Notes: generated from the letters alone by a model not told the origin. 45,598 nt of DNA from a virus (IMGVR_UViG_3300000563_000004:1-45598), one strand, 5' to 3'; positions 2,882-19,541 are shown, numbered from the stretch's first letter. Translations and numbers: made by a program.

Positions 2882-2912
2882 TTGCTATTCAAGTTTTTTT
2901 TTCTTATATTTG
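2882..2912 (+). promoter_or_regulatory. Bacteroidota-type promoter (-33 TTG / -7 TATATTTG)
   Basis: TTG (2882-2884), 20 bases, then TATATTTG (2905-2912) matches the Bacteroidota primary-sigma consensus TTG...TAnnTTTG. The helicase ATG is at 2928, which leaves a leader of about ten bases. The same spacing recurs at 20872, 34279 and 38466. It is probably read by host RNA polymerase early in infection. Confidence 0.75.
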
Positions 2913-2927
2913 CAAAAACATCGTTTT

Positions 2928-5753
2928 ATGATTAATGATGAAGTGTTTATTGTATTATGTACGAGGAAAGGAAGGTCTACTTGGTATTATCTTGATTTTC
3001 CGTATAATAAACAATTAGTTTCAAGAATAAGTAATTTACCTAAAGACGAAAGGAAGTTTTTGCCTTCACAAAAACTTTGGTTGGTTAAAATTGGTGGGTT
3101 GCTTGAATTACTACAGTCTTATCGTAAATCCAAAAAAATACATTTTGATTTTGGAGTTGAAGAACATAGACAAACATTTATTGAACTATTAAACAAGCAT
3201 AAAGAAAAAGAAAAGGAAAAACAACAAGCCATTGAGAAGTTGGCTAAAGACAAAAAACATTGGCTTGATTTTAAAAAATATATTGAAAAGAATTATGAAA
3301 AATATTCTGATGAACTACATTCTTACTTAAAACCAGGAATTAGACTTTACAGACACCAAATAACTGCAGCATTGTTTGCTAATAAAGTCAAAAATGCTTT
3401 AATATCTCACGAAATGGGGTTGGGTAAAGCGCAGGATGTTGATTCTAAATTACTTACACCTAATGGTTGGATTAGGATGGGTGATATTCGAAAAGGTGAT
3501 TATGTAATTGGTAGTGATGGTAAACCAAAAAAGGTTTTAGGTGTTTTTCCACAGGGTCTGAAAGATATTTATGAAATTTGTTTCAATGATGGTACATCTG
3601 CAAGGTCATGTGATGAACATCTTTGGAATGTAAATACATATATTCGCAATTGGAGGAAAAATCCTTTCATGACGAAAACTCTTCGTGAAATTATGGATAG
3701 TGGTTTACAGTTTGAAAATGGGAATAATAGGTGGTACATACCGATTGTTAAACCAATCGAATTAGAAGAAAAGAATTTAATAATTAACCCATATGTATTA
3801 GGTTGTTTATTGGGTGATGGATGTATAACCGTAAGAGATAGTATAGGTTTTTCAAGTATTGATAAACAAATTCTAAATGAGATTCAAATAAGATTACCAG
3901 AGAAACATAATTTAGTTATTAACGGTGAATCACATAAAGATTATTATTTAACTGCTGATGGTAGGAATAATTTAATAAATCAAGAATTAAAAAAACTTAA
4001 TTTAAAGGGTTGTAATTCTCATAATAAATTTATACCAAATGAATATAAATTAGGTTCTATATATCAAAGACTTGAAATGCTACAAGGGATATTAGATACT
4101 GATGGACATTCAAGAAAAGATAGTATTGTTGAACTAACTCTTGTATCGAAACAATTAATTAATGATGTTCAGTTTATCGTAGAGTCATTAGGTGGTATTG
4201 GTAGGATTAGTGAAAAATGGGTTAACTATAATAGTGAGAGAAGGTTATATTGGAGAATAAATATAAAACTTCCACCAGAGTTTACACCATTTAAACTTCA
4301 AAGAAAAATTGAAACATTTGTTGCACCAACCAAATATCCACCTAATCGTGCAATTACAGAAGTTAATTATGTTGGAGAAAAAGAAGCACAATGTATTTTA
4401 ATCGATTCGGAAGACCATTTGTACGTAACCGACCACTGTATATTAACTCACAATACTCTTAGTTCAATACTATATGTGGAAATGAATGGTTTTGAAAAAG
4501 TTTTTGTTATAACACCAAATTCATTAAAATTTAACTATTTTGGTGAAGTCGAAAAATTTACGAATAGTAAAGCACATATTGTTGGTTGGAAGAAAAACAA
4601 ATACACAATAGAGGAATCAAAATACATTATTGTTAATTACGAATTCTTCAATACCGGTAAGAAAGAAAAGATGGATGAGAAATGGAAGTCCTTGGGGATT
4701 GAAGTAATTGATTCTTTAGTTTTGGATGAATGTCATCGAATAAAAAACACCAAATCAAATACATATAAGAACTATGTGAGGATATTCAAAGATAAAATTT
4801 TTAGAAACAGTAAAGCAAGTAAGTTGTTTTTGTCTGGTACGCCAGCACCAAACAGGGCATATGAACTTTATACCGTAATGAAAGAAATATCGCCATTGGA
4901 TTTTCCAACAAAAGAATTCTTTTATAATTATTACTGTGGAATGACATATGATTATATGAATGGTTGGGGGTATGTGGTTGATGAAGAAAATACCAAATTT
5001 GAAGAATTATTTCATAAAATCGCACCATACACACACAGAAAAAGAAAATCAGATTTGGATGTCAAACTTCCAGAAAAAACATATCAAAGGGTTTTGTTGG
5101 AAATGAGTGATGCCGAATACAAAAAATATCGTGCAATTGAGGATTCTGTTGTTGATGATATTATGGGTTCGTCTCCGGGAAGGCATTTATCAATAATGGG
5201 CGAGTTAAGACAATATCTATCACAAATAAAAACAAAACCACTATATGGTTTAATTACGGATATTTTAGACAATACCGATGAAAAAGTTGTTATTGTTGAT
5301 GTATATAAAAAATCTTTATATGATTTGAATGAAATGTTTGATGGTGTTGCTGCATTACATACTGGTGACCAAACCGTTGATGAAAGAAATGAAGTTGTTA
5401 AAAAATTTCAAGATAAAAGTAGTCACATCAGAGTTTTTTTGGGGTCAATTCAAACCTGTAATTATGGACTTACTTTAACACAATCAAGTAAATTATTTTT
5501 ATTAACCCTGCCATTTATACCCGGTGAGTTTGATCAGGTTTCCGACAGACTTCATCGAATAGGCCAAAAACAGCCAGTAAACATCTATTCATTGGTTTAT
5601 GATAATACTGTTGACACACATACATATAGTTTGATTGAAAACAAAAGAGAAGAATTGTCGGTTGTAATGGATAATGAAAAATATACAAATCAAACCGTTA
5701 ATTCGGTGTTCGGTGATTTGGTTAAAAAACTACTTAAAGGACATGGGAAGTAA
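2928..5753 (+). CDS. SNF2/HARP-like DNA helicase interrupted by an intein
   Basis: A 941-residue precursor; removing the intein (residues 168-509) leaves about 599 residues. The start is the ATG at 2928, because an in-frame TTG at 2910 lies inside the promoter. The N-terminus (SRISNLPKDERKFLPSQKLW) resembles a HARP domain of SMARCAL1-type annealing helicases. Helicase motifs are I GLGK/T (split by the intein), Ia ITPNSLKFNY, II LDECHRIKN, III LSGTPAPNR, V GLTLTQSSKLFLL and VI DRLHRIGQKQ, typical of the SNF2 branch of superfamily 2. In T4 the comparable remodelling helicase is UvsW. A role in fork reversal or recombination-dependent replication is inferred from the family and from the polymerase gene downstream. 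The product works only after protein splicing. The next gene overlaps its stop. Confidence 0.93.
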   Translation: MINDEVFIVLCTRKGRSTWYYLDFPYNKQLVSRISNLPKDERKFLPSQKLWLVKIGGLLELLQSYRKSKKIHFDFGVEEHRQTFIELLNKHKEKEKEKQQAIEKLAKDKKHWLDFKKYIEKNYEKYSDELHSYLKPGIRLYRHQITAALFANKVKNALISHEMGLGKAQDVDSKLLTPNGWIRMGDIRKGDYVIGSDGKPKKVLGVFPQGLKDIYEICFNDGTSARSCDEHLWNVNTYIRNWRKNPFMTKTLREIMDSGLQFENGNNRWYIPIVKPIELEEKNLIINPYVLGCLLGDGCITVRDSIGFSSIDKQILNEIQIRLPEKHNLVINGESHKDYYLTADGRNNLINQELKKLNLKGCNSHNKFIPNEYKLGSIYQRLEMLQGILDTDGHSRKDSIVELTLVSKQLINDVQFIVESLGGIGRISEKWVNYNSERRLYWRINIKLPPEFTPFKLQRKIETFVAPTKYPPNRAITEVNYVGEKEAQCILIDSEDHLYVTDHCILTHNTLSSILYVEMNGFEKVFVITPNSLKFNYFGEVEKFTNSKAHIVGWKKNKYTIEESKYIIVNYEFFNTGKKEKMDEKWKSLGIEVIDSLVLDECHRIKNTKSNTYKNYVRIFKDKIFRNSKASKLFLSGTPAPNRAYELYTVMKEISPLDFPTKEFFYNYYCGMTYDYMNGWGYVVDEENTKFEELFHKIAPYTHRKRKSDLDVKLPEKTYQRVLLEMSDAEYKKYRAIEDSVVDDIMGSSPGRHLSIMGELRQYLSQIKTKPLYGLITDILDNTDEKVVIVDVYKKSLYDLNEMFDGVAALHTGDQTVDERNEVVKKFQDKSSHIRVFLGSIQTCNYGLTLTQSSKLFLLTLPFIPGEFDQVSDRLHRIGQKQPVNIYSLVYDNTVDTHTYSLIENKREELSVVMDNEKYTNQTVNSVFGDLVKKLLKGHGK
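3429..4454 (+). mobile_element. class 3 intein with LAGLIDADG homing endonuclease (342 aa)
   Basis: An in-frame insertion splits the Walker A motif as MGLGK | intein | TLSS. It starts with Ala rather than Cys or Ser (AQDVDSKLLTPNGW), has Trp in block B (DEHLWNV, residue 233 of the precursor), Cys in block F (AQCILID, residue 489) and Thr-His-Asn at the end (LTHN, 506-509). That is the W-C-T signature of class 3 inteins, in which the block F cysteine starts splicing. Two LAGLIDADG motifs, VLGCLLGDG (from residue 290) and MLQGILDTDG (from 384), indicate an intact homing endonuclease. The +1 extein residue is Thr. Walker A loops are a common intein site because they tolerate no scar. The frame is uninterrupted, so it is probably active. 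Confidence 0.9.
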
Positions 5754-9913: not shown

Positions 9914-9923
9914 GTATTTATGT
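9914..9923 (+). promoter_or_regulatory. late-type promoter motif
   Basis: TCAGTATTTATGT lies 23 bases before the ATG at 9937, right after the polymerase stop. It marks the switch from replication genes to the accessory block. Confidence 0.65.
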
Positions 9924-9936
9924 AAAAAACTTTATT

Positions 9937-10572
9937 ATGGAAATAAAAAAAATTGGCAGAGTAGATGAAATTGTCAATGCAGACAATAGCTTAATAGGTA
10001 GGGAAAGAATTCCCACACATGGCACAGATAGAGAATCGGATGCTCCAAAAACAACAGACTATAATGCAAATATTAGTAGACAACCATTCAGATATGATAT
10101 GTTGGGTCGTTTTGGTTTTACATTATTCCCGTTTTTTGAGGGCAAGGAAGATGATGCTCAAAATGAAGTAATTAGTGAATTGCAGGAATTTTTTAATGAA
10201 AAACATATCGAAACATTGAAAATGTATTATAAAAATCCTAGTAAACTAAAAAATCATTATCGTGTTGCTTCAAGAGAAAATTTTGATAAGTTGCCTGACG
10301 AAATCGAAGAAAGGTGTAAAAATATGGCGATTGGTGTTATGGAGCTAATACAACCACATATCGAAAAAGCACTTGAGGGCGTTGAAAAGAGTATTGATGA
10401 AGGAGTGGTGTTTGAAGACACAATTATGAAGGAAAAAAAGAAAAAGTGGATTGAAAATAAAACGGATGATAATGAATTAAACGATAAGGAAATAAAGAAA
10501 ATTGCGGGTTTGTTAAATAAAATGAAAAAAGACGACCTAAAAGACCTTATTAACTTACTTGAAACAAAATAA
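9937..10572 (+). CDS. hypothetical protein
   Basis: A 211-residue soluble protein I cannot assign. The first 60 residues are polar and probably disordered (THGTDRESDAPKTTDYNANISRQ). The middle is helical with aromatic residues (FGFTLFPFFEGKEDD, ETLKMYYKNPSKLKNHY). The C-terminal third is a very basic and acidic helix region (KEKKKKWIENK) ending in repeated Lys/Leu helices. No enzyme motif or membrane segment is present. It has a late-type motif and lies nine bases before the Nudix gene. Confidence 0.75.
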   Translation: MEIKKIGRVDEIVNADNSLIGRERIPTHGTDRESDAPKTTDYNANISRQPFRYDMLGRFGFTLFPFFEGKEDDAQNEVISELQEFFNEKHIETLKMYYKNPSKLKNHYRVASRENFDKLPDEIEERCKNMAIGVMELIQPHIEKALEGVEKSIDEGVVFEDTIMKEKKKKWIENKTDDNELNDKEIKKIAGLLNKMKKDDLKDLINLLETK

Positions 10573-10581
10573 AAACGTATA

Positions 10582-11355
10582 ATGGCTAATAGTGAATTGT
10601 ATGGTAAAACCTTTCAAATACCCAACGATGTTTTAGAACGCATAAAAAAACATCTTGTTAGCCATCCCGATGTTGATGGTAGTAAAAGAGCCAAGTTTTT
10701 ATTGAAAAATGGTACTATCACATATCAATCACTGAAAAGGTTAAAAAATTTTTTTGATACATTTAATCCACAACAACAAAACCAAGTTCAATATGAACTT
10801 GCTGGTGGAGATAAGATGAAAGGTTTTGTTGAATCTACGTTAAATGCAAAAAGAGATGCCGTTACTAGGTCCAAACAAATAAAAAACGATGCTGATTTAC
10901 CAAATAGATTGGGTGTAAAAGCACAAAAAACACCAAGGCTTGATGAAGATACCAAAAAAGATGTTGATAGCGTTGCGTTGGGGGTTGTTGTTGATGGTGA
11001 CAATCGTATTTTATTGTTGAAAAGAAACTATGTTAAAGATGGTTGGGGAAACGGCCAATGGGCTTTAGTTGGCGGTACAATTGAGGGTGGTGAGGATTCT
11101 GAAGAAACATTAAGACGTGAAATAAAGGAAGAATGTAAAATCGATGTGGATAAAGTAATTAAAAAGTTTTCAATAAAAAGAAATGACATAATTGAATATA
11201 TTTTTTTATGTACGTATTCCGGTCATCCCGATAAAATACAATTAAATGACGAACATATTGAGTATGGATGGTTTAAACATTCAGATATTAAATATTTGGA
11301 TACCGTGCCAAATTTGAAAGACTATATTTCAATTTCAATCAAAAAGTATGATTGA
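10582..11355 (+). CDS. Nudix hydrolase fused to an N-terminal phage domain
   Basis: A 257-residue two-domain protein. Residues about 132-257 are a Nudix fold: VALGVVVDGDNRILLLKR, then the box GTIEGGE-x7-REIKEECKI, which matches G-x5-E-x7-R-E-U-x-E-E-x-G-U except that Lys replaces the last Gly. The catalytic REIKEE core is intact. Residues 1-120 form a separate helical domain (FQIPNDVLERIKKHL, LKRLKNFFDTF) ending in a disordered linker. Nudix enzymes hydrolyse nucleoside diphosphates linked to another moiety, such as ADP-ribose, NADH, dNTPs or RNA caps; the substrate cannot be read from the sequence. The gene sits in a block with ART-, 2H- and HAD-like proteins. Late expression from the motif at 9914 is likely. 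Confidence 0.88.
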   Translation: MANSELYGKTFQIPNDVLERIKKHLVSHPDVDGSKRAKFLLKNGTITYQSLKRLKNFFDTFNPQQQNQVQYELAGGDKMKGFVESTLNAKRDAVTRSKQIKNDADLPNRLGVKAQKTPRLDEDTKKDVDSVALGVVVDGDNRILLLKRNYVKDGWGNGQWALVGGTIEGGEDSEETLRREIKEECKIDVDKVIKKFSIKRNDIIEYIFLCTYSGHPDKIQLNDEHIEYGWFKHSDIKYLDTVPNLKDYISISIKKYD

Positions 11356-11358
11356 TTT

Positions 11359-11368
11359 GTATTTATAT
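11359..11368 (+). promoter_or_regulatory. late-type promoter motif
   Basis: TTGTATTTATAT begins four bases after the Nudix stop and 44 bases before the ATG at 11403. The A before GTA in the consensus is T here, so it is a slightly weaker match. Confidence 0.55.
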
Positions 11369-11402
11369 GTAAATAATTAAAAGATTTTAAAAGTACGAAA
11401 CA

Positions 11403-11642
11403 ATGAGTAGATTATTAGACGGTTCTTTGGAGTTCAGAAAAAAGAATATTACAAGAAATATTTACGACAAAAACGATTATTACAACATCGGACATTCAAG
11501 AGCATTATCAGATGGTGATGAATGGGGTAAAGGTCGTTTAAATAGTTCTGTGGGGTCGCTTACAGACATCAATAAAAGAAGTGAATTGACGGCAAAAAAC
11601 AAATTCAATTCAAACAACCAATATAATAGCGAAACCGCATAA
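11403..11642 (+). CDS. small hypothetical protein
   Basis: A 79-residue polar protein rich in Asn, Asp, Arg and Ser (DKNDYYNIGHSRALSDGDEW, then NSSVGSLTDINKRSEL). It has no hydrophobic core long enough for a membrane segment and no family I know, and is probably largely disordered. It ends three bases before the WYL-like gene and so should be cotranscribed with it from the motif at 11359. Confidence 0.7.
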   Translation: MSRLLDGSLEFRKKNITRNIYDKNDYYNIGHSRALSDGDEWGKGRLNSSVGSLTDINKRSELTAKNKFNSNNQYNSETA

Positions 11643-11644
11643 AA

Positions 11645-12427
11645 ATGTTAAGGGAAGTTAAATTTTTCTTGAATAAAATCAGAGGCTTTTTAAATGAAAA
11701 TGCCAATACAAGTACTTTTGTTGAAGCAATCAACAACAGAAAGTATTTGTATATCTATTATAGTGGAGATGATACTATAATGACGGGCTATCGTATCATA
11801 AAACCATATGTAATAGGTGCTACAGGTGCTGGAAATACTGTATTAAGGGCTTGGGAAACCGAGGGTAATAGCGATAGTTTTTATGGTTTGTCTCGAACAA
11901 GAAGAAAAGACCATGAATATTTTTATAGCGATGGAAAAGAAGTTCCGGGTTGGAGATTATTTAGAGTAGACAAAATAACTTCGGTATATCCAACAGGTCG
12001 TTCTTTTAGAAACGAACCGTTGCCGAGACTATATAATCCCAATGATAAACAAATGGTGGGTGGTATTATTGCTTCGGTTGAAAAAACACAAAAAAGGGTG
12101 GATGTTAAAGACAAATCCAAATTGGATGACCCAAGTGTTGTTAAATATAAAGGCGGTAAAGACAGGGAAGTTACAAAAAAAGATATTGAAGAACTATATG
12201 ATTTAGTAAGAAAGGTTAAGAAAAGAAGACCATCGGATTATGTTGTTTATTATGATGAAAATGATGATTTGAACGTTGTCACCGAAAAAACCAAACATAG
12301 AGTACCAGAAGAAAACATTGTGGGTAATTTAAGGGAATTATACTTAAGTATGGTTCAACCAAAAAGACCAGATGATAGGTTTCACAAACAAAAAAGAAGT
12401 GAATTGGAAAGAGAAATAGGAAAATAA
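11645..12427 (+). CDS. WYL-domain-like protein
   Basis: A 260-residue protein whose residues about 25-125 follow the WYL pattern: FVEAINNRKYLYIYYSG, then GYRIIKPYVIG as the first strands, VLRAWETEG in place of the W-Y-L strand, and WRLFRVDKITSVYPTG as the closing F-R-x-D-x-I motif. WYL domains bind ligands or nucleic acid and often regulate defence or DNA-damage genes, usually beside a helix-turn-helix. No DNA-binding domain is visible here; the N-terminus is a short amphipathic helix, and residues 160-260 are basic, helical and of unknown fold. The W-Y-L triplet itself is not conserved, so the call rests on the overall pattern. It could sense ligand in the late stage or be a virion protein. 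Confidence 0.6.
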   Translation: MLREVKFFLNKIRGFLNENANTSTFVEAINNRKYLYIYYSGDDTIMTGYRIIKPYVIGATGAGNTVLRAWETEGNSDSFYGLSRTRRKDHEYFYSDGKEVPGWRLFRVDKITSVYPTGRSFRNEPLPRLYNPNDKQMVGGIIASVEKTQKRVDVKDKSKLDDPSVVKYKGGKDREVTKKDIEELYDLVRKVKKRRPSDYVVYYDENDDLNVVTEKTKHRVPEENIVGNLRELYLSMVQPKRPDDRFHKQKRSELEREIGK

Positions 12428-12450
12428 TTTATCTTTTTTCAATTTTACAA

Positions 12451-12460
12451 GTATTTATAA
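12451..12460 (+). promoter_or_regulatory. late-type promoter motif
   Basis: CAAGTATTTATAAAAAAC lies 45 bases before the ATG at 12496 and after the stop of the WYL-like gene. Confidence 0.7.
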
Positions 12461-12495
12461 AAAACAATAAAAAAATATAATTAACATTGAAAGTT

Positions 12496-13137
12496 ATGAG
12501 CAGTAAATTAAATTTTGATCCTAACATATTAAAAGAAGAAATGAGGCGTAAACGAGAAGAAAAAGGCCAGCAAAGTGGTGGTAACGCAGATAATTTCTTA
12601 AACGAATTGTTGGAATCCAGAAAAACAGGTAGGCCAACAAAAGCGGTTAATCGTATTAAAAAAATTGAAAATGAATCGATAAAACATTCCAATCAAAAAT
12701 ATAATAAGGGCGATAAACCGATTTTTAATGAAGCAGATGAATCAACACCCGAACCAACCAGAAGAAAAGCTAGAACTGTAGATTTTTCTGATGACAATAG
12801 GGAAGAGCAAATGTTTAGGGATTTTGAGAGTTCAAATAATCAAACACTTGCCGAACAAATGGAAAAATTTAATCAAAAAGGAAGTAGTTTACCTCATCAC
12901 ACACAACAACCCCAAAGTAGGGGTGGTGATGGTTTGCAAACAAGATATTTGCACGAAACAGTTGATGAATATATGACAAAAAATTATGCACCATTAATTG
13001 AAAACAGTATTAAAAATGTTATGTTGGAAACATACGCTGTTGAAACAATTAAAAAGGCTTTGCTTGAAAATAAGGATTTATTGAAAGCGGCGGTGATTGA
13101 AGTCATAAAAGATTTAAAAAGGAAAAAAACCGAATAA
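12496..13137 (+). CDS. hypothetical coiled, mostly disordered protein
   Basis: A 213-residue protein. The ATG at 12496 is preferred to an in-frame TTG at 12487. Residues 1-145 are low in hydrophobics, rich in Lys, Glu, Asn and Gln, and look disordered (MRRKREEKGQQSGG, HHTQQPQSRGG). The last 65 residues form a helical segment (LIENSIKNVMLETYAVETI, then IEVIKDLKRKKTE) that could oligomerise. A disordered body with one C-terminal helical domain fits head core or scaffolding-associated proteins, but no homolog is recognised. It forms its own late-type unit. Confidence 0.75.
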   Translation: MSSKLNFDPNILKEEMRRKREEKGQQSGGNADNFLNELLESRKTGRPTKAVNRIKKIENESIKHSNQKYNKGDKPIFNEADESTPEPTRRKARTVDFSDDNREEQMFRDFESSNNQTLAEQMEKFNQKGSSLPHHTQQPQSRGGDGLQTRYLHETVDEYMTKNYAPLIENSIKNVMLETYAVETIKKALLENKDLLKAAVIEVIKDLKRKKTE

Positions 13138-13161
13138 TATCTAACTCATCTTTTTTTTACC

Positions 13162-13171
13162 GTATTTATAA
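13162..13171 (+). promoter_or_regulatory. late-type promoter motif
   Basis: TTTTTTTTACCGTATTTATAA has the T-run and the GTATTTATAA core, 69 bases before the ATG at 13231, the longest spacing in the window. The extra distance is taken up by a tiny upstream ORF. Confidence 0.65.
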
Positions 13172-13207
13172 TATAGTTAACACTATTTTATTGAAAAATC
13201 ATTATTA

Positions 13208-13234
13208 ATGAACTATATTATATATTACATATGA
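13208..13234 (+). CDS. eight-codon upstream mini-ORF
   Basis: ATG at 13208 reads MNYIIYYI and stops at TGA 13232-13234, inside the ATGA of the next gene's start. ATGAACTATA occurs twice, at 13208-13217 and at the real start 13231-13240, so this may be a duplicated start region. Translation is unproven; coupling or attenuation is possible. Confidence 0.3.
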   Translation: MNYIIYYI

Positions 13235-16122
13235 ACTATAAAGAATTTCTAAAACAACTCGATGAAATTAAGTCGTTTAGAGGTCGTATTGCTTTGGCCG
13301 ATAAACATTTCACAAGAATTGGGTCGGGAAGCGGCAGAATCGTATATTTAATTGATGACGATAAAGTTTTAAAACTCGCTAGAAACGCAAAAGGTATTGC
13401 ACAAAATGATGTTGAAAGTGATGCTGGTATGATTGGCAGATATGATGACGTCATAACAAAAGTGTTTGATGCAAGCGATAAGGATTGGTGGTTGTTGGCA
13501 GAAAAAGCAAAAAAAATAACACCCAGCAGGTTTAAAGAATTGGTTGGTTTTGATTTAGATAGTGTTCGTAGGTTTATGATGAATTACATCGAGCAATCAA
13601 AAGGTGGTAAACCAATATTTCATATGGAACAAGAGCTTGTGGATGAGATGTATGAGGACGAATTCATTATGGAGTTAACATCATTTGCTGATGATTACGC
13701 ACAGTCTGCGGGTGATATGGGAAGACCATCAACATACGGTGAGGTTATTAGAGATGGAAAACCCACAATCGTTCTAACAGATTATGGTTTAACTGATGAA
13801 GTGTTTGACACACACTACGCACCAAAAAAAAGGCAAACCTATAAAGTTTTTGAAATATATGGTGGATATGGAAACAACGATTGGCTTTCAGATATTGGAA
13901 ATGTATCACAAGATGTACGACATAGAATGAAAGCATTTGTGCCAGATGGTGTTGGTGATGGTTTGGGGTTGGTTAATGAAGTCACGGAATTTAAAGACGA
14001 TATTTCCACCGTATTAGAAAAAGAACGCACCAAAGAAAACATACCTGAATTGTTGGATGCCTACCACAATTCAGTAAACAATATACATACAATTGTTAAT
14101 ACAATAGATAACCCCCAATATTTTTATTTAAAATTACTTGATTTACAAGAATTTTTGAAAAATTCTTGGGTATTGGACAGACCACAATTAAAGGCTGTTG
14201 TTGAAAGGGTTAATGAAGGTGGTTCTGCAACATATAGTACGGATTACGGTATTGGTGATGGTTCGTATTATGAAAAAAGGGGTGGAGAAGCGTTTGACGT
14301 AATACCAGAAGATTTGGAATATAAGCGTGTTAGTGATGCAACTGCTGATGAATATGTTATGGATGAAAACATCCAAAAAATGGATAAGGAATATGTAAAA
14401 CCCGGACATTTCACCGAACAAGACAGAGAAAATGTATTGGAAATAACGGGTGGTGATGCCCATACATATGATGTTGCTAAAATATATGATTTTTTTATGC
14501 AAATTACAAATCCAAATTTGGAAAGAACGGATGTTGATAAGTACGATAGTCATATAAAAGAGCAGTTGAATGAATATTACAATGAATTGCGTAATTACAA
14601 TAAAAATGTTATACCAATAGAAGGTAAGGAAAATTTGGAATATGGTATTGAGTTGGCAACTGGTTTGAAGTATAGAAAAGAAATAATTGATTTCTTAAAA
14701 AAAATTCCATCTGTTTATCTCAGAAATTTAAAAGAAGATATTCGTAAACCAAGGACACCTGATGAACTTAATTACGGTCCGTTAAGGAATAATTATATAC
14801 CAACAATAAAACATCAATTAAATAATATTGAGCGTTTGAGTTCAGAAAAACAAGGCAAGATTTTTAAAAAAATATTTTCGAGCAAAAACGATACGTTTGA
14901 GAAAGTCGCTGAACAAATAGATAAATTAGACATATTGTTTTTAGACCATGAAGGTGGTGTTAAGGAACTAAGAGATAAAATAAATTATGAGGTCGAACAC
15001 GATGAAGCAAGAAAATTGTATGATGATGGTGAAATTATAGTTGTGAGTGTGAAGTCATCAGACGCAATGAAAAATTTGGGTTGTGGTACTCAATGGTGCT
15101 TTGCAACCGAAATTGGTACTGGAGAATGGGAAGAATATTCACAAAATAAAAACGTAAATATCGTATACAATTTCAACGAACCTTCGGATTCAAGAAAAAG
15201 AATGGTTCTTTTATTACCTAGTGGCGGTGTATATGATATGTATAATGATGATTTGGAAGATGGGATGTCATACTTTCAAGAAATTGGTGTTGAAAAATAT
15301 TTAAATGCTGGTGAAAAAGATGCTGTTGATGCCGAAGAAGAGTTGGCTGAAAGAAAAAAGGCGTGGATACCTGGTTCACAGGCGGTTGAAGTAAAACCTG
15401 AATGTAGGATTGGTGGCTTGAATGGCACATCAAAGGCTTGTAATCAAGGCGATATTGATAATTTAATTTTTACAACAATCAAAGAATATTTTGAAAATTT
15501 AAATGAAAGAAAAAAGGCTTGGATGTCTGGTGCTAAATCTGTTGAAGTAAAAGATGCTTGTAGATTAGGTGGCAAGGGAGATGGTACATCAAAGGCGTGT
15601 AACCAAGGCGATATTGATAATTTAGTTTTAAAATCGTTAAACGAAGAGGATTTATTAGAATATATTAAAAAAAATATGAAAGATGTTAGTGAAATGGTTG
15701 GTGATACAGCCGAATTGGATGCTCCAACCAAAACGAAACCCCCTATATCGTATAGTGCGGTGGTTATTAACGATTCATCCAAAGACAGACTAATAAAAGC
15801 ATTCCAAAAAATTATACCAAAAGATTGGGAAATTGTTGCCGATCATATGACCATTAATTTGGGTGAAATAAAACCTGAATTAGAAAAATACGTTGGAATG
15901 AAGGTTAGGTTGGAAGTAAATTCTTTTGCAATGGATGATATGGTACTTGCTGCGGGTGTTGATGGATTTGAATCCGAAAAAGAATACCCACACATAACAA
16001 TAGCCATCAATAAAAAAGCAGGTGCGTCATCAAAGATGTCTAACGATTTAAAAGATTGGGTTGATATGAAAAGACCTTTAATGGTTTTTGGATATGTAAA
16101 AGAAATACCATTTAAATTGTAG
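13231..16122 (+). CDS. multidomain protein: kinase-like fold, GTxWC domain, tandem repeat, 2H phosphoesterase
   Basis: A 963-residue protein with several recognisable parts. Residues 28-200 look like a protein-kinase/APH-type fold: glycine loop GSGSGRIVYL, Lys48 in VLKLA, hinge WWLLAEKA, a possible catalytic-loop Asp162 (GDMGRPSTYG) and TDYG (D184) in the place of DFG; the usual Asn after the catalytic Asp is not obvious. Residues about 590-690 carry LGCGTQWCFA (617-625), a domain I have seen in other large-phage proteins of unknown role. Residues 707-800 hold a 52-residue tandem repeat. The C-terminus (about 840-963) has two H-x-T motifs, DHMTINLG (H872) and PHITIAIN (H921), the signature of 2H phosphoesterases that act on 2',3'-cyclic or 2'-5' phosphodiesters. 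Late expression suggests a virion or injected protein. Domain calls are by motif only. Confidence 0.75.
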   Translation: MNYKEFLKQLDEIKSFRGRIALADKHFTRIGSGSGRIVYLIDDDKVLKLARNAKGIAQNDVESDAGMIGRYDDVITKVFDASDKDWWLLAEKAKKITPSRFKELVGFDLDSVRRFMMNYIEQSKGGKPIFHMEQELVDEMYEDEFIMELTSFADDYAQSAGDMGRPSTYGEVIRDGKPTIVLTDYGLTDEVFDTHYAPKKRQTYKVFEIYGGYGNNDWLSDIGNVSQDVRHRMKAFVPDGVGDGLGLVNEVTEFKDDISTVLEKERTKENIPELLDAYHNSVNNIHTIVNTIDNPQYFYLKLLDLQEFLKNSWVLDRPQLKAVVERVNEGGSATYSTDYGIGDGSYYEKRGGEAFDVIPEDLEYKRVSDATADEYVMDENIQKMDKEYVKPGHFTEQDRENVLEITGGDAHTYDVAKIYDFFMQITNPNLERTDVDKYDSHIKEQLNEYYNELRNYNKNVIPIEGKENLEYGIELATGLKYRKEIIDFLKKIPSVYLRNLKEDIRKPRTPDELNYGPLRNNYIPTIKHQLNNIERLSSEKQGKIFKKIFSSKNDTFEKVAEQIDKLDILFLDHEGGVKELRDKINYEVEHDEARKLYDDGEIIVVSVKSSDAMKNLGCGTQWCFATEIGTGEWEEYSQNKNVNIVYNFNEPSDSRKRMVLLLPSGGVYDMYNDDLEDGMSYFQEIGVEKYLNAGEKDAVDAEEELAERKKAWIPGSQAVEVKPECRIGGLNGTSKACNQGDIDNLIFTTIKEYFENLNERKKAWMSGAKSVEVKDACRLGGKGDGTSKACNQGDIDNLVLKSLNEEDLLEYIKKNMKDVSEMVGDTAELDAPTKTKPPISYSAVVINDSSKDRLIKAFQKIIPKDWEIVADHMTINLGEIKPELEKYVGMKVRLEVNSFAMDDMVLAAGVDGFESEKEYPHITIAINKKAGASSKMSNDLKDWVDMKRPLMVFGYVKEIPFKL
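15349..15624 (+). repeat. two-copy tandem repeat inside the coding sequence (period 156 bases, 52 aa)
   Basis: Both copies encode ERKKAW-x2-G-x2-x-VEVK-x2-CR-x-GG, a short variable Gly stretch, then GTSKACNQGDIDNL. Copy 1 is about 15349-15466 and copy 2 about 15505-15624. Each has two Cys in a conserved frame. The codons have diverged, so the duplication is not recent and the protein motif is under selection. Confidence 0.88.
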
Positions 16123-16135
16123 TAGTTGTATTGTT

Positions 16136-16711
16136 ATGAGGAAATTAGCTTTTTATGATTTTGATTCTACTTTGGTGGAGTCACCACATCCAGAATATGG
16201 TATTGATGATTGGCAAGAATATTATGGTGAAGAATATCCACACATTGGTTGGTGGAGTAAACCCGAAAGTTTGGATTTGAACGTTTTCGAATTCAGAACA
16301 ATACCAAAAATGAAGCAACTCATTAAAAAAGATTTATCAAACCCAACAACATATGTTATTGTTTTAACTGCCAGAATTGAAAGTCTTAGACCATATATTG
16401 AAAGAATATTAAAGAAACTTAGTTTTGATGTCGACATTTTGGATATGAAATCTGATGGTCGAAATAAGGGGGAAAAGGTTTTGGAATACATAATGAACAA
16501 TCCAAACATAAAACAAGTTGATGTGTATGACGACAATTACGAAAGAGAAATTCTTTCATATAAATCAATTGTTGATGAAATACCTGATGGGATTGATTTT
16601 AATATCTATCACGTCAGTAATGGTATGCCAACGAAATTAAGTGAGAATCAAATAAAGATTAAGTCATTGGTTAATGAAACCATTGTTCACTATTTACAAA
16701 ACGGTAAATAA
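16136..16711 (+). CDS. HAD-superfamily phosphatase, HAD_SAK-like
   Basis: A 191-residue phosphatase-fold protein. Motif I is YDFDSTLV (nucleophile D8, acid D10), motif II is the Thr in IVLTARIE, motif III is the Lys in RNKGEKVL and motif IV is DVYDDN. Between motifs I and II it has a Pro-rich segment and IGWWSKPESLDL. The order DFDSTL...P-x-P...GWW is what I know from the Swiss Army Knife RNA-repair HAD family (PF10307). That family is linked to RNA end healing, which makes its place 13 bases after a gene ending in a 2H phosphoesterase domain notable. Catalytic residues are complete. The substrate is inferred, not shown. Confidence 0.85.
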   Translation: MRKLAFYDFDSTLVESPHPEYGIDDWQEYYGEEYPHIGWWSKPESLDLNVFEFRTIPKMKQLIKKDLSNPTTYVIVLTARIESLRPYIERILKKLSFDVDILDMKSDGRNKGEKVLEYIMNNPNIKQVDVYDDNYEREILSYKSIVDEIPDGIDFNIYHVSNGMPTKLSENQIKIKSLVNETIVHYLQNGK

Positions 16712-16724
16712 AATTACTTTATAA

Positions 16725-16734
16725 GTATTTATAA
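16725..16734 (+). promoter_or_regulatory. late-type promoter motif
   Basis: TAAGTATTTATAAAAAAA lies only 21 bases before the ATG at 16746, so the leader would be just a few bases if initiation is about ten bases downstream of the box. Confidence 0.65.
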
Positions 16735-16745
16735 AAAAATTGATT

Positions 16746-17588
16746 ATGATTGATATGCGACATAAACCACCACATTTACCTCAAATGTCAGCACCTTTTG
16801 ATATTGTTGTGAGTGAATTGGAAAGAGAGGGAATTAAATACAAAAAGGGTTTGTGTGACCCCGATGATTTGGAACCATCACAAGGTTTTACGTTTTGTGA
16901 TGCCAAACACATAAAGCAAAAACCGATTTGGGTTGGGGGTGAAGATGATGATACCAATGCAATATTGGATGGACATCATACATGGGTAAGCGCATTATCA
17001 AGTGAGAGGCCGGTTGAATACATTAAAGTATTTTTAAAACCAAAAGATGCTTGTAGGTTACTCAATAAAATACAAGACATATATGAATATAAACAACAAA
17101 TAAGGGTGGAAGAAATTGTTACGCAATCAAGAAATATTAACGATAGAAATGACCCTCAAAGAGATAAACCAATTGAAGATGATTGGTTATCGGAAATCGA
17201 ATCACTAAATGATGAGGTTTTGGATGAAAACAAAGACAAACCCAAAAATAAAGAAAGTGTTGTTGGTTATCGCAACAAAGATATTAATGAAAATTCTGTG
17301 ATTGGAAATTTTTTTTCGTTAACCCCAGAGGTTGGTTATGATAAATACGAAATTGAGTTTGATAATTTGTTAAACACAAGCACGTTGGGAATTCAATTTT
17401 TCGATGGTCAAGTACCAACAGATGTTTTGGCAAAAATATGGTTTCCATACATTAATTTTGAAATAATTGCCAATAAACATGGCGTGGATCCCATCAACAT
17501 AAAAAATCGTTGTATTACGGAGAAAGCAAGAAAAATGGGGTTTGATGGTATTAAATACGGTGATTCACTAGTACAGGGCATAAAATAA
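16746..17588 (+). CDS. ParB/sulfiredoxin-like protein with possible ADP-ribosyltransferase C-terminal domain
   Basis: A 280-residue protein. The ATG at 16746 is preferred to the in-frame TTG at 16740. Residues about 25-105 fit a ParB/sulfiredoxin fold: DLEPSQGFTF, KPIWVGGEDDD, then ILDGHHTWVSAL (the D-G-H-H motif) and VEYIKVFL. A charged linker (about 110-175) follows. The C-terminus (about 177-280) has GYRNKDINENSVIGNFFSLT and ends with ARKMGFDGIKYGD. An arginine strand, an F-F/Y-S motif and a closing G-F/Y-D-G-I-x-Y segment are also seen in ART-type domains of phage polyvalent proteins. T4 Alt and ModA are known phage ARTs that modify host polymerase. A catalytic Glu is not clear, so the ART call is tentative. 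Confidence 0.6.
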   Translation: MIDMRHKPPHLPQMSAPFDIVVSELEREGIKYKKGLCDPDDLEPSQGFTFCDAKHIKQKPIWVGGEDDDTNAILDGHHTWVSALSSERPVEYIKVFLKPKDACRLLNKIQDIYEYKQQIRVEEIVTQSRNINDRNDPQRDKPIEDDWLSEIESLNDEVLDENKDKPKNKESVVGYRNKDINENSVIGNFFSLTPEVGYDKYEIEFDNLLNTSTLGIQFFDGQVPTDVLAKIWFPYINFEIIANKHGVDPINIKNRCITEKARKMGFDGIKYGDSLVQGIK

Positions 17589-17611: not shown

Positions 17612-18070
17612 ATGAAATATTTTAAAATAAGAAACGTAACAGATTCTTTAGGGAAAAGAGAGATTAGGTTTAATAGTGATTTGGATGTTGAATTTATAAC
17701 TGGTTTTGTTAAGGACAGCATTGTGCTTAAGCCAAATCAACAACTATATATGAAAACCAAAACGCTCCCCATAACATTACACAAAATGAGGTTGCAGGGT
17801 TTGATTAGTATTGTTGAAGTCGATTCAAAAGAATATGAACTTGAATTATTAAAACGTAAATTGCATTATGAAAAAGCAGTTGAAGACGCAAAAAAAATGA
17901 AAAAAAAGGAAGAAACCAAAAAAACTACAAAAAAAACAACTGCAACTAAACCTAAAGGACCTGGAAGACCACCAAAAAAGAAAGTTGATGATGAAGTAGA
18001 AAAAAACGATGCTACCGAGTCTATTGAAAATGAAGGTGGTGGTGAAACAAAAGAAGAAAGTACGGATTAA
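17612..18070 (+). CDS. hypothetical protein with AT-hook tail
   Basis: A 152-residue protein. Residues 1-75 look like a small beta-rich domain (YFKIRNVTDSLGKREIRF, SIVLKPNQQLYM, LQGLISIVEV). The rest is Lys/Thr-rich low complexity with one AT-hook core, GPGRPPKKK (near 117-125), and an acidic end. AT-hooks bind the minor groove of AT-rich DNA, which suits this genome. A second AT-hook protein with nearly the same core is encoded at 35823. The N-terminal domain resembles nothing I can name. A DNA-associated head or packaging role is a guess. Confidence 0.7.
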   Translation: MKYFKIRNVTDSLGKREIRFNSDLDVEFITGFVKDSIVLKPNQQLYMKTKTLPITLHKMRLQGLISIVEVDSKEYELELLKRKLHYEKAVEDAKKMKKKEETKKTTKKTTATKPKGPGRPPKKKVDDEVEKNDATESIENEGGGETKEESTD

Positions 18071-18164: not shown

Positions 18165-19541
18165 ATGAAAAAAGAAAAGGATGGCCGTATAAGAGTTTTA
18201 TTTTACAATTTAGATTCTGCTGGTGTTAATTATTTTAGAACACTTACCCCTGCAACGGAATTAGAGAGAATTGCTGAAAATGATTTTTATGTTGAAATAA
18301 ACAACAAAATCGATTTTGATGATGAAAATACAATTGAATACTTGAAATCGTTTGACATCATCCACTACCACCGTCAATTACATCCAAATGACAAAAAAAT
18401 GTCTTTATTGAGAAAGCAACTTAAAGAAGCCGGTGTTGTTTTGGTTATGGATATTGACGACTATTGGTATCTTGATAAAACCCACCCATATTATTTAATG
18501 TCACTTGAAAAAGAATTACATAAAAAAATAGTCTTTAATTTAAGAGAAGCTGATTATGTAACCACAACAACCGACCATTTTGCTTATGAAATAAGGAAGG
18601 TTACAAAGAAAGATAATGTTTTTGTTCTACATAATTCAATCAATCCTGATTGGATGAAACAATTTGAAAATAATTGGAAACCAGACCCAGAAGGCAGGGT
18701 TAGAATTACTTATATGGCGGGTTCAAGTCATAAGAGTGATGTTCAACAATTAAGAACGGTTGTAAATATGTTAAATGCTGACCGAGAACTCAAAGACAAA
18801 TTCAAGATAATTATTGCGGGATGGGACACCGAAGGAAGCACAACAGAAACAGAATTTAATTGGGATTTTGCTGAAGAATTGAAGGAATTGGGATTGTGGG
18901 ATAAAAAAATGATTAGAACAATAAACCAATCAAGAGGTGATGTTGATTTGATTTATGGAATTCCTGACGAGTTAAGAGAAAAATACAGGGATAAGGTCGT
19001 TAAAGTCAATAAAAGAGACATTACTTCTGAAGAATCTGTTTATTGGGAGTATGAAAAAATTCTCACAAACAACCACAACATCATCACCAACGAAGACTAT
19101 AAACAATGGTTGATGAATTTTGACAGACACGAAAAATACCCCAATGAAGGTAATTATGCCAGGAGGTGGACACAAAAAGCAAATAGATATGCTAATGTTT
19201 TAAATGAAACGGATATAGTAATTGCTCCGCTCTCAAACAATAAGTTTAATAATATGAAAAGTAATCTTAAGCAAGTTGAGTGTTGGAGTAGAAGAATTCC
19301 TGTGGTTTGTTCTGATGTGATACCATATAATGTTGATGGTGAGCATATGGAAAACTGTATTTTGATACCAGATAAAAAAAATGCGTTTAAATATTGGAAA
19401 AAAGAACTAAAAAAACTTATATTAGACCCGGATTTAAGGAATAAAATTGGTGAGGGTTTACATAGAGATTTTTCGGAAAAATATCACTTAACAAATGTCA
19501 CAAAAAAAAGGGCAGAAATTTATAAGGAAATTGTGAAATGA
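18165..19541 (+). CDS. GT4-like glycosyltransferase
   Basis: A 458-residue GT-B glycosyltransferase. The N-terminal half has IRVLFYNLDSAGVNYFR, then DIIHYHRQ and VVLVMDIDDYWYLD. The C-terminal Rossmann half has VRITYMAGSSHKSDVQQL, KIIIAGWDTEG, IVIAPLSNNKFNNMKSNLK (the acceptor/donor loop usually ending in E or K), then VECWSRRIPVVCSDVIPY, the typical conserved tail of GT4 enzymes, and a helix after LILDPDLRNKIGEG. It overlaps the next gene by four bases (ATGA). The target could be a modified base, a virion protein or a cell-surface sugar. It is not closely similar to the GT9-like protein at 143. Confidence 0.85.
   Translation: MKKEKDGRIRVLFYNLDSAGVNYFRTLTPATELERIAENDFYVEINNKIDFDDENTIEYLKSFDIIHYHRQLHPNDKKMSLLRKQLKEAGVVLVMDIDDYWYLDKTHPYYLMSLEKELHKKIVFNLREADYVTTTTDHFAYEIRKVTKKDNVFVLHNSINPDWMKQFENNWKPDPEGRVRITYMAGSSHKSDVQQLRTVVNMLNADRELKDKFKIIIAGWDTEGSTTETEFNWDFAEELKELGLWDKKMIRTINQSRGDVDLIYGIPDELREKYRDKVVKVNKRDITSEESVYWEYEKILTNNHNIITNEDYKQWLMNFDRHEKYPNEGNYARRWTQKANRYANVLNETDIVIAPLSNNKFNNMKSNLKQVECWSRRIPVVCSDVIPYNVDGEHMENCILIPDKKNAFKYWKKELKKLILDPDLRNKIGEGLHRDFSEKYHLTNVTKKRAEIYKEIVK

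Follow-up and report, generated by a model that had tools for sequence, protein, structure and literature searches.

Bacteria use the cutting of tRNA as a major last line of defence, to which phages are known to respond chiefly with RNA ligases. A 2017 study described polyvalent proteins that carry kinase, ADP-ribosyltransferase (ART), 2H and ParB-like domains, predicted their injection and, because the 2H domains were never seen with ligases, proposed for these a role as RNase or in the degradation of oligoadenylates (Iyer et al., PMC5512222). In jumbo phages, SAK, 2H and CCA enzymes were described in 2021 as intracellular RNA repair, SAK being mostly standalone (PMC7824862), and for bacterial CCA enzymes a passage of PMC10673834, citing Yakunin 2004, attributes to the HD domain the removal of 2',3'-cyclic phosphates from tRNA ends. 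Here we consider a stretch of viral DNA of 45,598 nucleotides (IMGVR_UViG_3300000563_000004:1-45598, hereafter the window), where an initial annotation had placed, between positions 10,582 and 17,588, a Nudix protein, a WYL-like protein, a kinase-like/2H protein, a HAD_SAK phosphatase and a ParB-like/ART protein within 7 kb; all five open reading frames (ORFs) were found there, the WYL assignment being weak. We read these genes, at a probability of about 0.55, as a counter-defence cassette of polyvalent type in a large T4-like phage lineage, with a conserved core for the healing of RNA 3' ends, most probably those of tRNA.

Conserved 2H, CCA and HAD_SAK enzymes

The window encodes two of the three core domains, in a composite protein and in the gene that follows it:

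13231..16122, + strand: 963-aa composite protein of polyvalent type (kinase-like domain, unknown domain, two copies of an element named CNQGDI after its motif, 2H domain)
15745..16107, + strand: 2H phosphoesterase domain of the CNPase / fungal tRNA-ligase cyclic phosphodiesterase (CPD) type, as predicted from fold Z-scores, HxT motifs and PF08302 in homologues
16136..16711, + strand: HAD_SAK phosphatase (PF10307 and catalytic residues)

Relatives of the locus were gathered with baseplate, ParB, HAD and 2H protein queries and mapped with profile hidden Markov models (HMMs); the 963-aa protein alone returned no matches when used as query against viral contigs. The strongest evidence that the 2H, CCA nucleotidyltransferase and HAD_SAK domains share a substrate, the damaged RNA 3' end, is that they have been joined separately outside the cassette: as a single 2H-CCA-HAD polypeptide of 698-717 aa in two loci (L160, with 698 aa, and L161), as a 2H-HAD fusion in L189, as a CCA-HAD fusion in L157 and as operons in L174 and L190. 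Pfam recognised PolyA_pol (1e-24), an RNA-binding domain and HAD_SAK in the fusions, and the CCA domains of L160, L161, L053, L024 and L011 were matched by PF01743 (~1e-24) and PF12627 (~1e-15); addition of CCA rather than of poly(A) is their putative activity. No named phage in the collection covered 80% of the 2H-CCA-HAD fusion. Among 18 non-redundant HAD loci outside the cassette, a 2H domain occurred in 7 and a CCA domain in 6 within the fetched stretch.

Linkage was also evident when 20 large relatives were searched over their whole records, in which 2H, HAD and CCA were each present as a single copy. The three lay within 6 kb of each other in 14 of the 15 records that hold them all, the exception being G020, where HAD is distant; by chance, genes present once per genome of 170-390 kb would cluster far less often, the 15 records being of shared ancestry and hence not independent events. 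The recurrence of the cassette in 34 non-redundant relatives, together with the clustering of 2H, HAD and CCA within 6 kb, shows that the grouping of these genes is not due to chance.

The 2H domain of the window contains an HxT motif twice, as HMT (aa 872) and as HIT (aa 921); both are kept in 35 homologues. Its predicted fold, modelled by AlphaFold with a confidence (pLDDT) of about 90 as compared to medium values for aa 377-710 of the same protein, matches CNPase with a Z-score of 13.4 over 125 residues (2.2 Å) and the fungal Trl1-type tRNA ligase 6u05 with 11.2, vs. 7.6 for Acb1 and 6.4 for LigT. The PF08302 model (tRNA_lig_CPD) was matched by 30 of the 35 homologues; the window's own domain reached 18 bits and stayed below the gathering score of 23, which those of L189 (26.1) and L236 (25.3) passed. 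On the predicted structure the domain is of the CNPase / tRNA-ligase CPD type and, by analogy, activity on 2',3'-cyclic phosphates is predicted.

The window's HAD_SAK protein matched PF10307 (HAD_SAK_1) with an E value of 2.9e-5 and 24.4 bits, just below the cut-off of 25.6, and the same model was matched by 38 of 38 HAD homologues, at best with 1.7e-16. The D-x-D, T, K and DD motifs typical of HAD enzymes are well kept, with D8, D10 and D133 invariant and T78, K111 and D132 present in at least 90% of the sequences. No usable match came from searching PDB sequences with the HAD, 2H and ParB profiles. A contig from a single-cell cyanobacterial assembly (L282, Prochlorococcus AG-409-L21), probably a cyanophage, carries HAD_SAK, 2H and CCA on one 15-kb stretch.

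The suggestion of the initial annotation that these folds meet in the healing of RNA ends is thus well supported by the CNPase-type 2H paired with HAD_SAK and by the CCA domain of the relatives, even in one polypeptide. In the order of reactions that we infer, host RNases, e.g., tRNA-cutting defence effectors, would leave 2',3'-cyclic phosphates, which the CNPase/CPD-type 2H would open; HAD_SAK would then take off the phosphate that is left, freeing the 3' end, and, in most relatives, the CCA-type nucleotidyltransferase would rebuild the 3' terminus of the tRNA. No RNA ligase was found in the cassette, and the ends would therefore be either rebuilt by CCA addition or passed to a ligase encoded elsewhere. 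The kinase-like repeats, ART, S-adenosylmethionine (SAM) lyase and Acb1-like 2H domains of the relatives' composites could act on host proteins, on NAD/ADP-ribose and on other defences. A conserved 2H, HAD and CCA unit suggests repair by rebuilding of 3' ends and would predict which defences are beaten; the fused enzymes of L160 and L161 are compact and directly assayable.

Organisation of the cassette and its other domains

The remaining features of the cassette in the window are the following:

10582..11355, + strand: Nudix hydrolase with conserved N-terminal extension; Nudix domain at about aa 132-244 (PF00293, PHROG 1198)
11403..11642, + strand: small conserved ORF of 79 aa, with same-position homologues in L003 and L004
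11645..12427, + strand: WYL-like protein, a weak assignment (PF13280 below cut-off)
12487..13137, + strand: conserved ORF between the WYL-like and composite genes, with homologues in L003 and L053; alternative ATG at 12496
13252..13812, + strand: kinase-like domain, with G-loop, Lys and Asp-x-Gly kept in relatives, weak PDB kinase matches and a match to phrog_4301 (9e-11)
14803..15333, + strand: GTQWCFA-motif domain, with HMM matches in L091, L162 and L228
15352..15489, + strand: CNQGDI element, copy 1 (HMM 1.7e-21)
15508..15657, + strand: CNQGDI element, copy 2 (HMM 9.4e-25)
16740..17588, + strand: ParB-like and ART-fold protein (AlphaFold model, pLDDT 84); alternative ATG at 16746
16794..17090, + strand: ParB/Srx-like domain with DGHH motif (structural matches to ParB, Noc, PadC and Srx)
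17235..17585, + strand: ART-fold domain (structural matches to AcrIF11 6kyf, 9k3a_B and PARP10)
17612..18070, + strand: small conserved protein closing the cassette, directly 3' of ParB-ART in all mapped relatives

The cassette is present on dozens of viral contigs, of which the window is one example, in the order Nudix, WYL-like, composite, in some cases a standalone 2H, HAD_SAK, ParB-ART and small protein. In the relatives the composite consists of one to three kinase-like domains, the CNQGDI element, variable modules, a CCA nucleotidyltransferase and the 2H domain. Thirty-four ParB loci were retained after removal of near duplicates and with at least 7 kb upstream required, the ParB gene being present in all of them by selection; upstream of it we found 2H in 31, CCA in 30, HAD in 29, CNQGDI in 28, kinase-like domains in 27, WYL in 26 and Nudix in 23. 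The joint conservation that the initial annotation implied was thus borne out by synteny. Other genes were observed inside or beside the cassette: a small gene for a response-regulator receiver domain between HAD_SAK and ParB-ART in L070 and L089, homing-endonuclease-like and other nuclease-like genes within it in L017, L018, L079 and L117, and an intein-like insertion in the conserved glycosyltransferase gene 3' of it in L012 (L012:2155-4611).

The Nudix protein matched PF00293 with an E value of 1.7e-16 and has an intact Nudix box; it also resembles a portal-fused Nudix domain (phrog_15528, 1.3e-10). For the WYL-like protein the PF13280 match (E 0.0059) reached 17 bits against a gathering score of 21.8, and its homologue in L073 gave no PF13280 match at 0.01.

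In an alignment of 46 copies of the kinase-like domain, Lys41, Gly163 and Asp177 (domain numbering) are invariant, and the profile hit mainly protein kinases among PDB sequences, weakly (E 0.0016-0.02). None of the 46 domains matched a PolyVal kinase model or, convincingly, a Pfam kinase model. This part of the AlphaFold model was unusable (pLDDT mostly below 50); the assignment, made on sequence, is likely, not proven.

The CNQGDI element that usually follows the kinase-like repeats, once per composite protein, is an almost invariant segment of about 45 residues (consensus ..KKKCRLGGLGNTSxACNQGDINNL..), present in the window as a DNA repeat pair of 74-83% identity. It had no Pfam, PHROG or named-phage match; its being a widespread domain was rejected, since the searches did not find it outside this lineage, and we regard it as a candidate processing, packaging or binding module. 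The GTQWCFA-motif domain is common to few relatives and is predicted to be folded (pLDDT mostly 54-88); a stretch resembling its motif by eye, Y-G-W-C-I-A, occurs in a 2545-aa protein of L170.

The composites combine several disparate effector domains near late genes, as polyvalent proteins do, that of the window having the kinase-like domain, the unknown domain and 2H. The ART-PolyVal model was matched over the Pfam cut-off in the orthologous composites of L003 (8.7e-9), L091 (2.4e-7) and L094 (3.9e-9), and was not matched by the window's own protein. A SAM lyase is present in the L236 composite (2e-17), and a 2H domain of the Acb1/LigT type in those of L091 and L236 (Acb1 match 1.5e-7). The L236 protein (L236:3116-10372) is a 2419-aa composite of kinase-like, SAM lyase, ART, Acb1/LigT-type 2H, CCA and CPD-type 2H domains.

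In the AlphaFold model of the ParB-ART protein, aa 19-117 matched ParB, Noc and Srx with Z-scores of 5-7, values at which a common arrangement is possible. The GHHR-type active-site arginine of ParB/Srx is not kept: DGH is invariant and the next-but-one residue is R, T, N or K, and T in the window. The second domain (aa 166-282) matched 6kyf with a Z-score of 5.8 over 103 residues at 5.3 Å, 6kyf, an anti-CRISPR according to its record, being the ADP-ribosyltransferase AcrIF11; further matches of ART fold were the cyanophage A4 pre-ejectosome protein 9k3a_B (Z 5.2) and PARP10 (Z 2.8), all of these scores being middling. As compared to the H-Y-D triad of polyvalent ARTs, strand 1 has an invariant R178 replacing H, strand 2 reads G-N-F-F and strand 5 has an invariant D269. 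An ART of the T4 Alt type was rejected, as R-S-E is absent: strand 2 lacks a conserved Ser, and strand 5 has Asp rather than Glu. Structure prediction did not contradict the 2H, HAD_SAK and ART assignments; the proposed link with NAD or ADP-ribose metabolism is supported in part, as the ART fold stands, whereas the activity is uncertain because the invariant Arg178 occupies the position of the strand-1 His.

The parent IMG/VR record of the window is linear, measures 50.5 kb and also encodes a DNA polymerase, a baseplate wedge protein, SbcCD-type proteins, a primase and a sigma factor, and its source is therefore a large T4-like phage. Neither the window's DNA nor its ParB protein had close relatives among named phages, the sole signal being a weak match of the kinase region in XacN1; the nearest baseplate relatives were Microcystis phage Mel-JY01 and Flavobacterium immuto phages (27-29% identity). 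L281 is a complete cassette whose contig was binned together with a Bacteroidota genome, weak evidence that the host of at least some relatives is probably a member of the Bacteroidota. The SNF2-type helicase at 2910-5753 of the window has an intein-like insert at about aa 163-520, with Hint and LAGLIDADG matches.

Promoter-like motif and alternative readings

Five copies of the motif GTATTTAT lie on the gene strand at the cassette:

9914..9921, + strand: GTATTTAT promoter-like motif upstream of 9937/Nudix
11359..11366, + strand: GTATTTAT promoter-like motif upstream of 11403
12451..12458, + strand: GTATTTAT promoter-like motif upstream of 12487
13162..13169, + strand: GTATTTAT promoter-like motif upstream of the composite protein
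16725..16732, + strand: GTATTTAT promoter-like motif upstream of ParB-ART

The motif occurs 24 times in the window vs. 4.8 expected, a number reached by 0 of 100 shuffles, and 12 of its 20 sites on the + strand fall in intergenic DNA, which makes up 4.5% of the window. It lies 15-145 bases 5' of 12 gene starts, including those at 9937, 11403, 12487, 13231 and 16740 and that of the glycosyltransferase/baseplate block at 18165; no intergenic copy was found in the window before the helicase, polymerase, primase or SbcCD-like genes. Enrichment on the gene strand only was seen in 34 of 34 relatives, by a small margin in a few, and in one 349-kb genome 27 of the 28 copies at 51-145 kb were on the cassette strand, the strands being mixed in the rest of the genome. 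Read in the direction of the genes, the T4 late promoter in its literal form, TATAAATA, was rejected, since in most relatives its number on the + strand did not exceed expectation. GTATTTAT is likely, on sequence grounds, to be a promoter element common to the whole lineage and distinct from T4 TATAAATA; it fits a promoter of the structural block, from which late timing would follow. The initial annotation's late-type motifs hold in this form, the strand-specific GTATTTAT and not TATAAATA supporting late expression.

As the motif places transcription of the cassette together with that of the structural genes of the virion, the cassette products may be packaged and act early in the next infection; packaging and injection are plausible in this light. 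A more specific proposal, which we put forward tentatively and hold to be rather doubtful, is a virion-delivered, ligase-independent kit of 2H, HAD_SAK and CCA, sometimes one polypeptide, that would restore tRNAs cut by host defence at the acceptor end before phage gene expression, the CNQGDI element serving as packaging or processing signal.

Several findings weigh against a counter-defence cassette built on 3'-end healing. HAD_SAK is absent in a few relatives (L051, L053, L109, L115 and L118), 2H and HAD homologues stand alone in several other phages, no CCA domain was found in the window's 963-aa protein or in its 50.5-kb fragment, and elsewhere in 14 of the 20 large records an RNA ligase (PF09414) exceeded the cut-off, as did RtcB in 2. 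Healing may therefore serve ordinary sealing, and a strictly ligase-free phage was rejected. The same ligase count favours an explanation in which the enzymes act without injection, in late-made intracellular RNA repair that would, e.g., maintain phage or host tRNAs while ligases encoded elsewhere seal, as does the description of jumbo-phage SAK, CCA and 2H enzymes in these terms (PMC7824862). However, the ligases are not linked to the cassette (in G002 they lie at 21 kb and 248 kb, the cassette near 90 kb), which stands under the structural-block motif and within large composites whose ART, SAM-lyase and Acb1-like domains match what injected polyvalent proteins would be expected to contain; we consider repair without injection possible but rather unlikely.

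The neighbouring Nudix and ART proteins, and the additional Acb1- or LigT-like type of 2H domain in some composites, would also suit the clearing of signals, with 2H, Nudix and HAD degrading cyclic nucleotide or ADP-ribose-derived molecules (ADP-ribose 1'',2''-cyclic phosphate, CBASS/Thoeris-type messengers), as proposed for viral Nudix and 2H enzymes (PMC9503650). This appears distinctly unlikely, since the cassette 2H is nearer to CNPase and the tRNA-ligase CPD than to Acb1, and the clearing of signals offers no evident reason for its fusion to a CCA nucleotidyltransferase and to HAD_SAK. The offensive use put forward for polyvalent 2H domains, never seen with RNA ligases (PMC5512222), in which 2H would cut host RNA in a Usb1-like manner or 2'-5' oligonucleotides, seems very improbable here: the affinity to the CNPase/CPD fold points to healing, and so does the link with HAD_SAK and the CCA enzyme, rather than to an RNase role. 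A polyvalent-type cassette with RNA 3'-end healing at its core is the reading that we prefer.

Comparison with described systems

At the level of single domains, mammalian CNPase and the fungal tRNA ligase CPD resemble the window's 2H in fold and in both HxT motifs, with very low identity (~12%) and a smaller domain in the phage. The CCA enzyme of E. coli type, according to the passage of PMC10673834 referred to above, likewise couples removal of cyclic phosphate, through its HD domain, to CCA addition, whereas in the cassette the cleaning would come from the CNPase-type 2H and HAD_SAK. Jumbo-phage RNA repair (PMC7824862) and phage T4 Pnkp/Rnl1 are likewise predicted to act against tRNA cleavage; here, in contrast to jumbo-phage repair, 2H, CCA and HAD form one linked or fused unit, and the cassette lacks the ligase that ligase-based repair of T4 type would include.

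T4 Alt, too, is an ART-fold protein beside baseplate genes under late-type motifs. The cassette ART is, however, fused to a ParB-like domain, lacks R-S-E and is no more than a candidate for packaging, and polyvalent proteins are the better comparison. The polyvalent proteins of phages and conjugative elements are also large multi-effector proteins near late or virion genes (PMC5512222), but CCA, haloacid and Swiss army are not mentioned in that paper, and the cassette differs in its kinase-like domains, which fit no Pfam polyvalent kinase model, and in its CNQGDI element. The cassette challenges the earlier RNase proposal for polyvalent 2H domains and extends the range of phages with polyvalent proteins by a large group that had not been listed before. 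Polyvalent proteins and jumbo-phage RNA repair were already known, and it is their combination that appears to be new.

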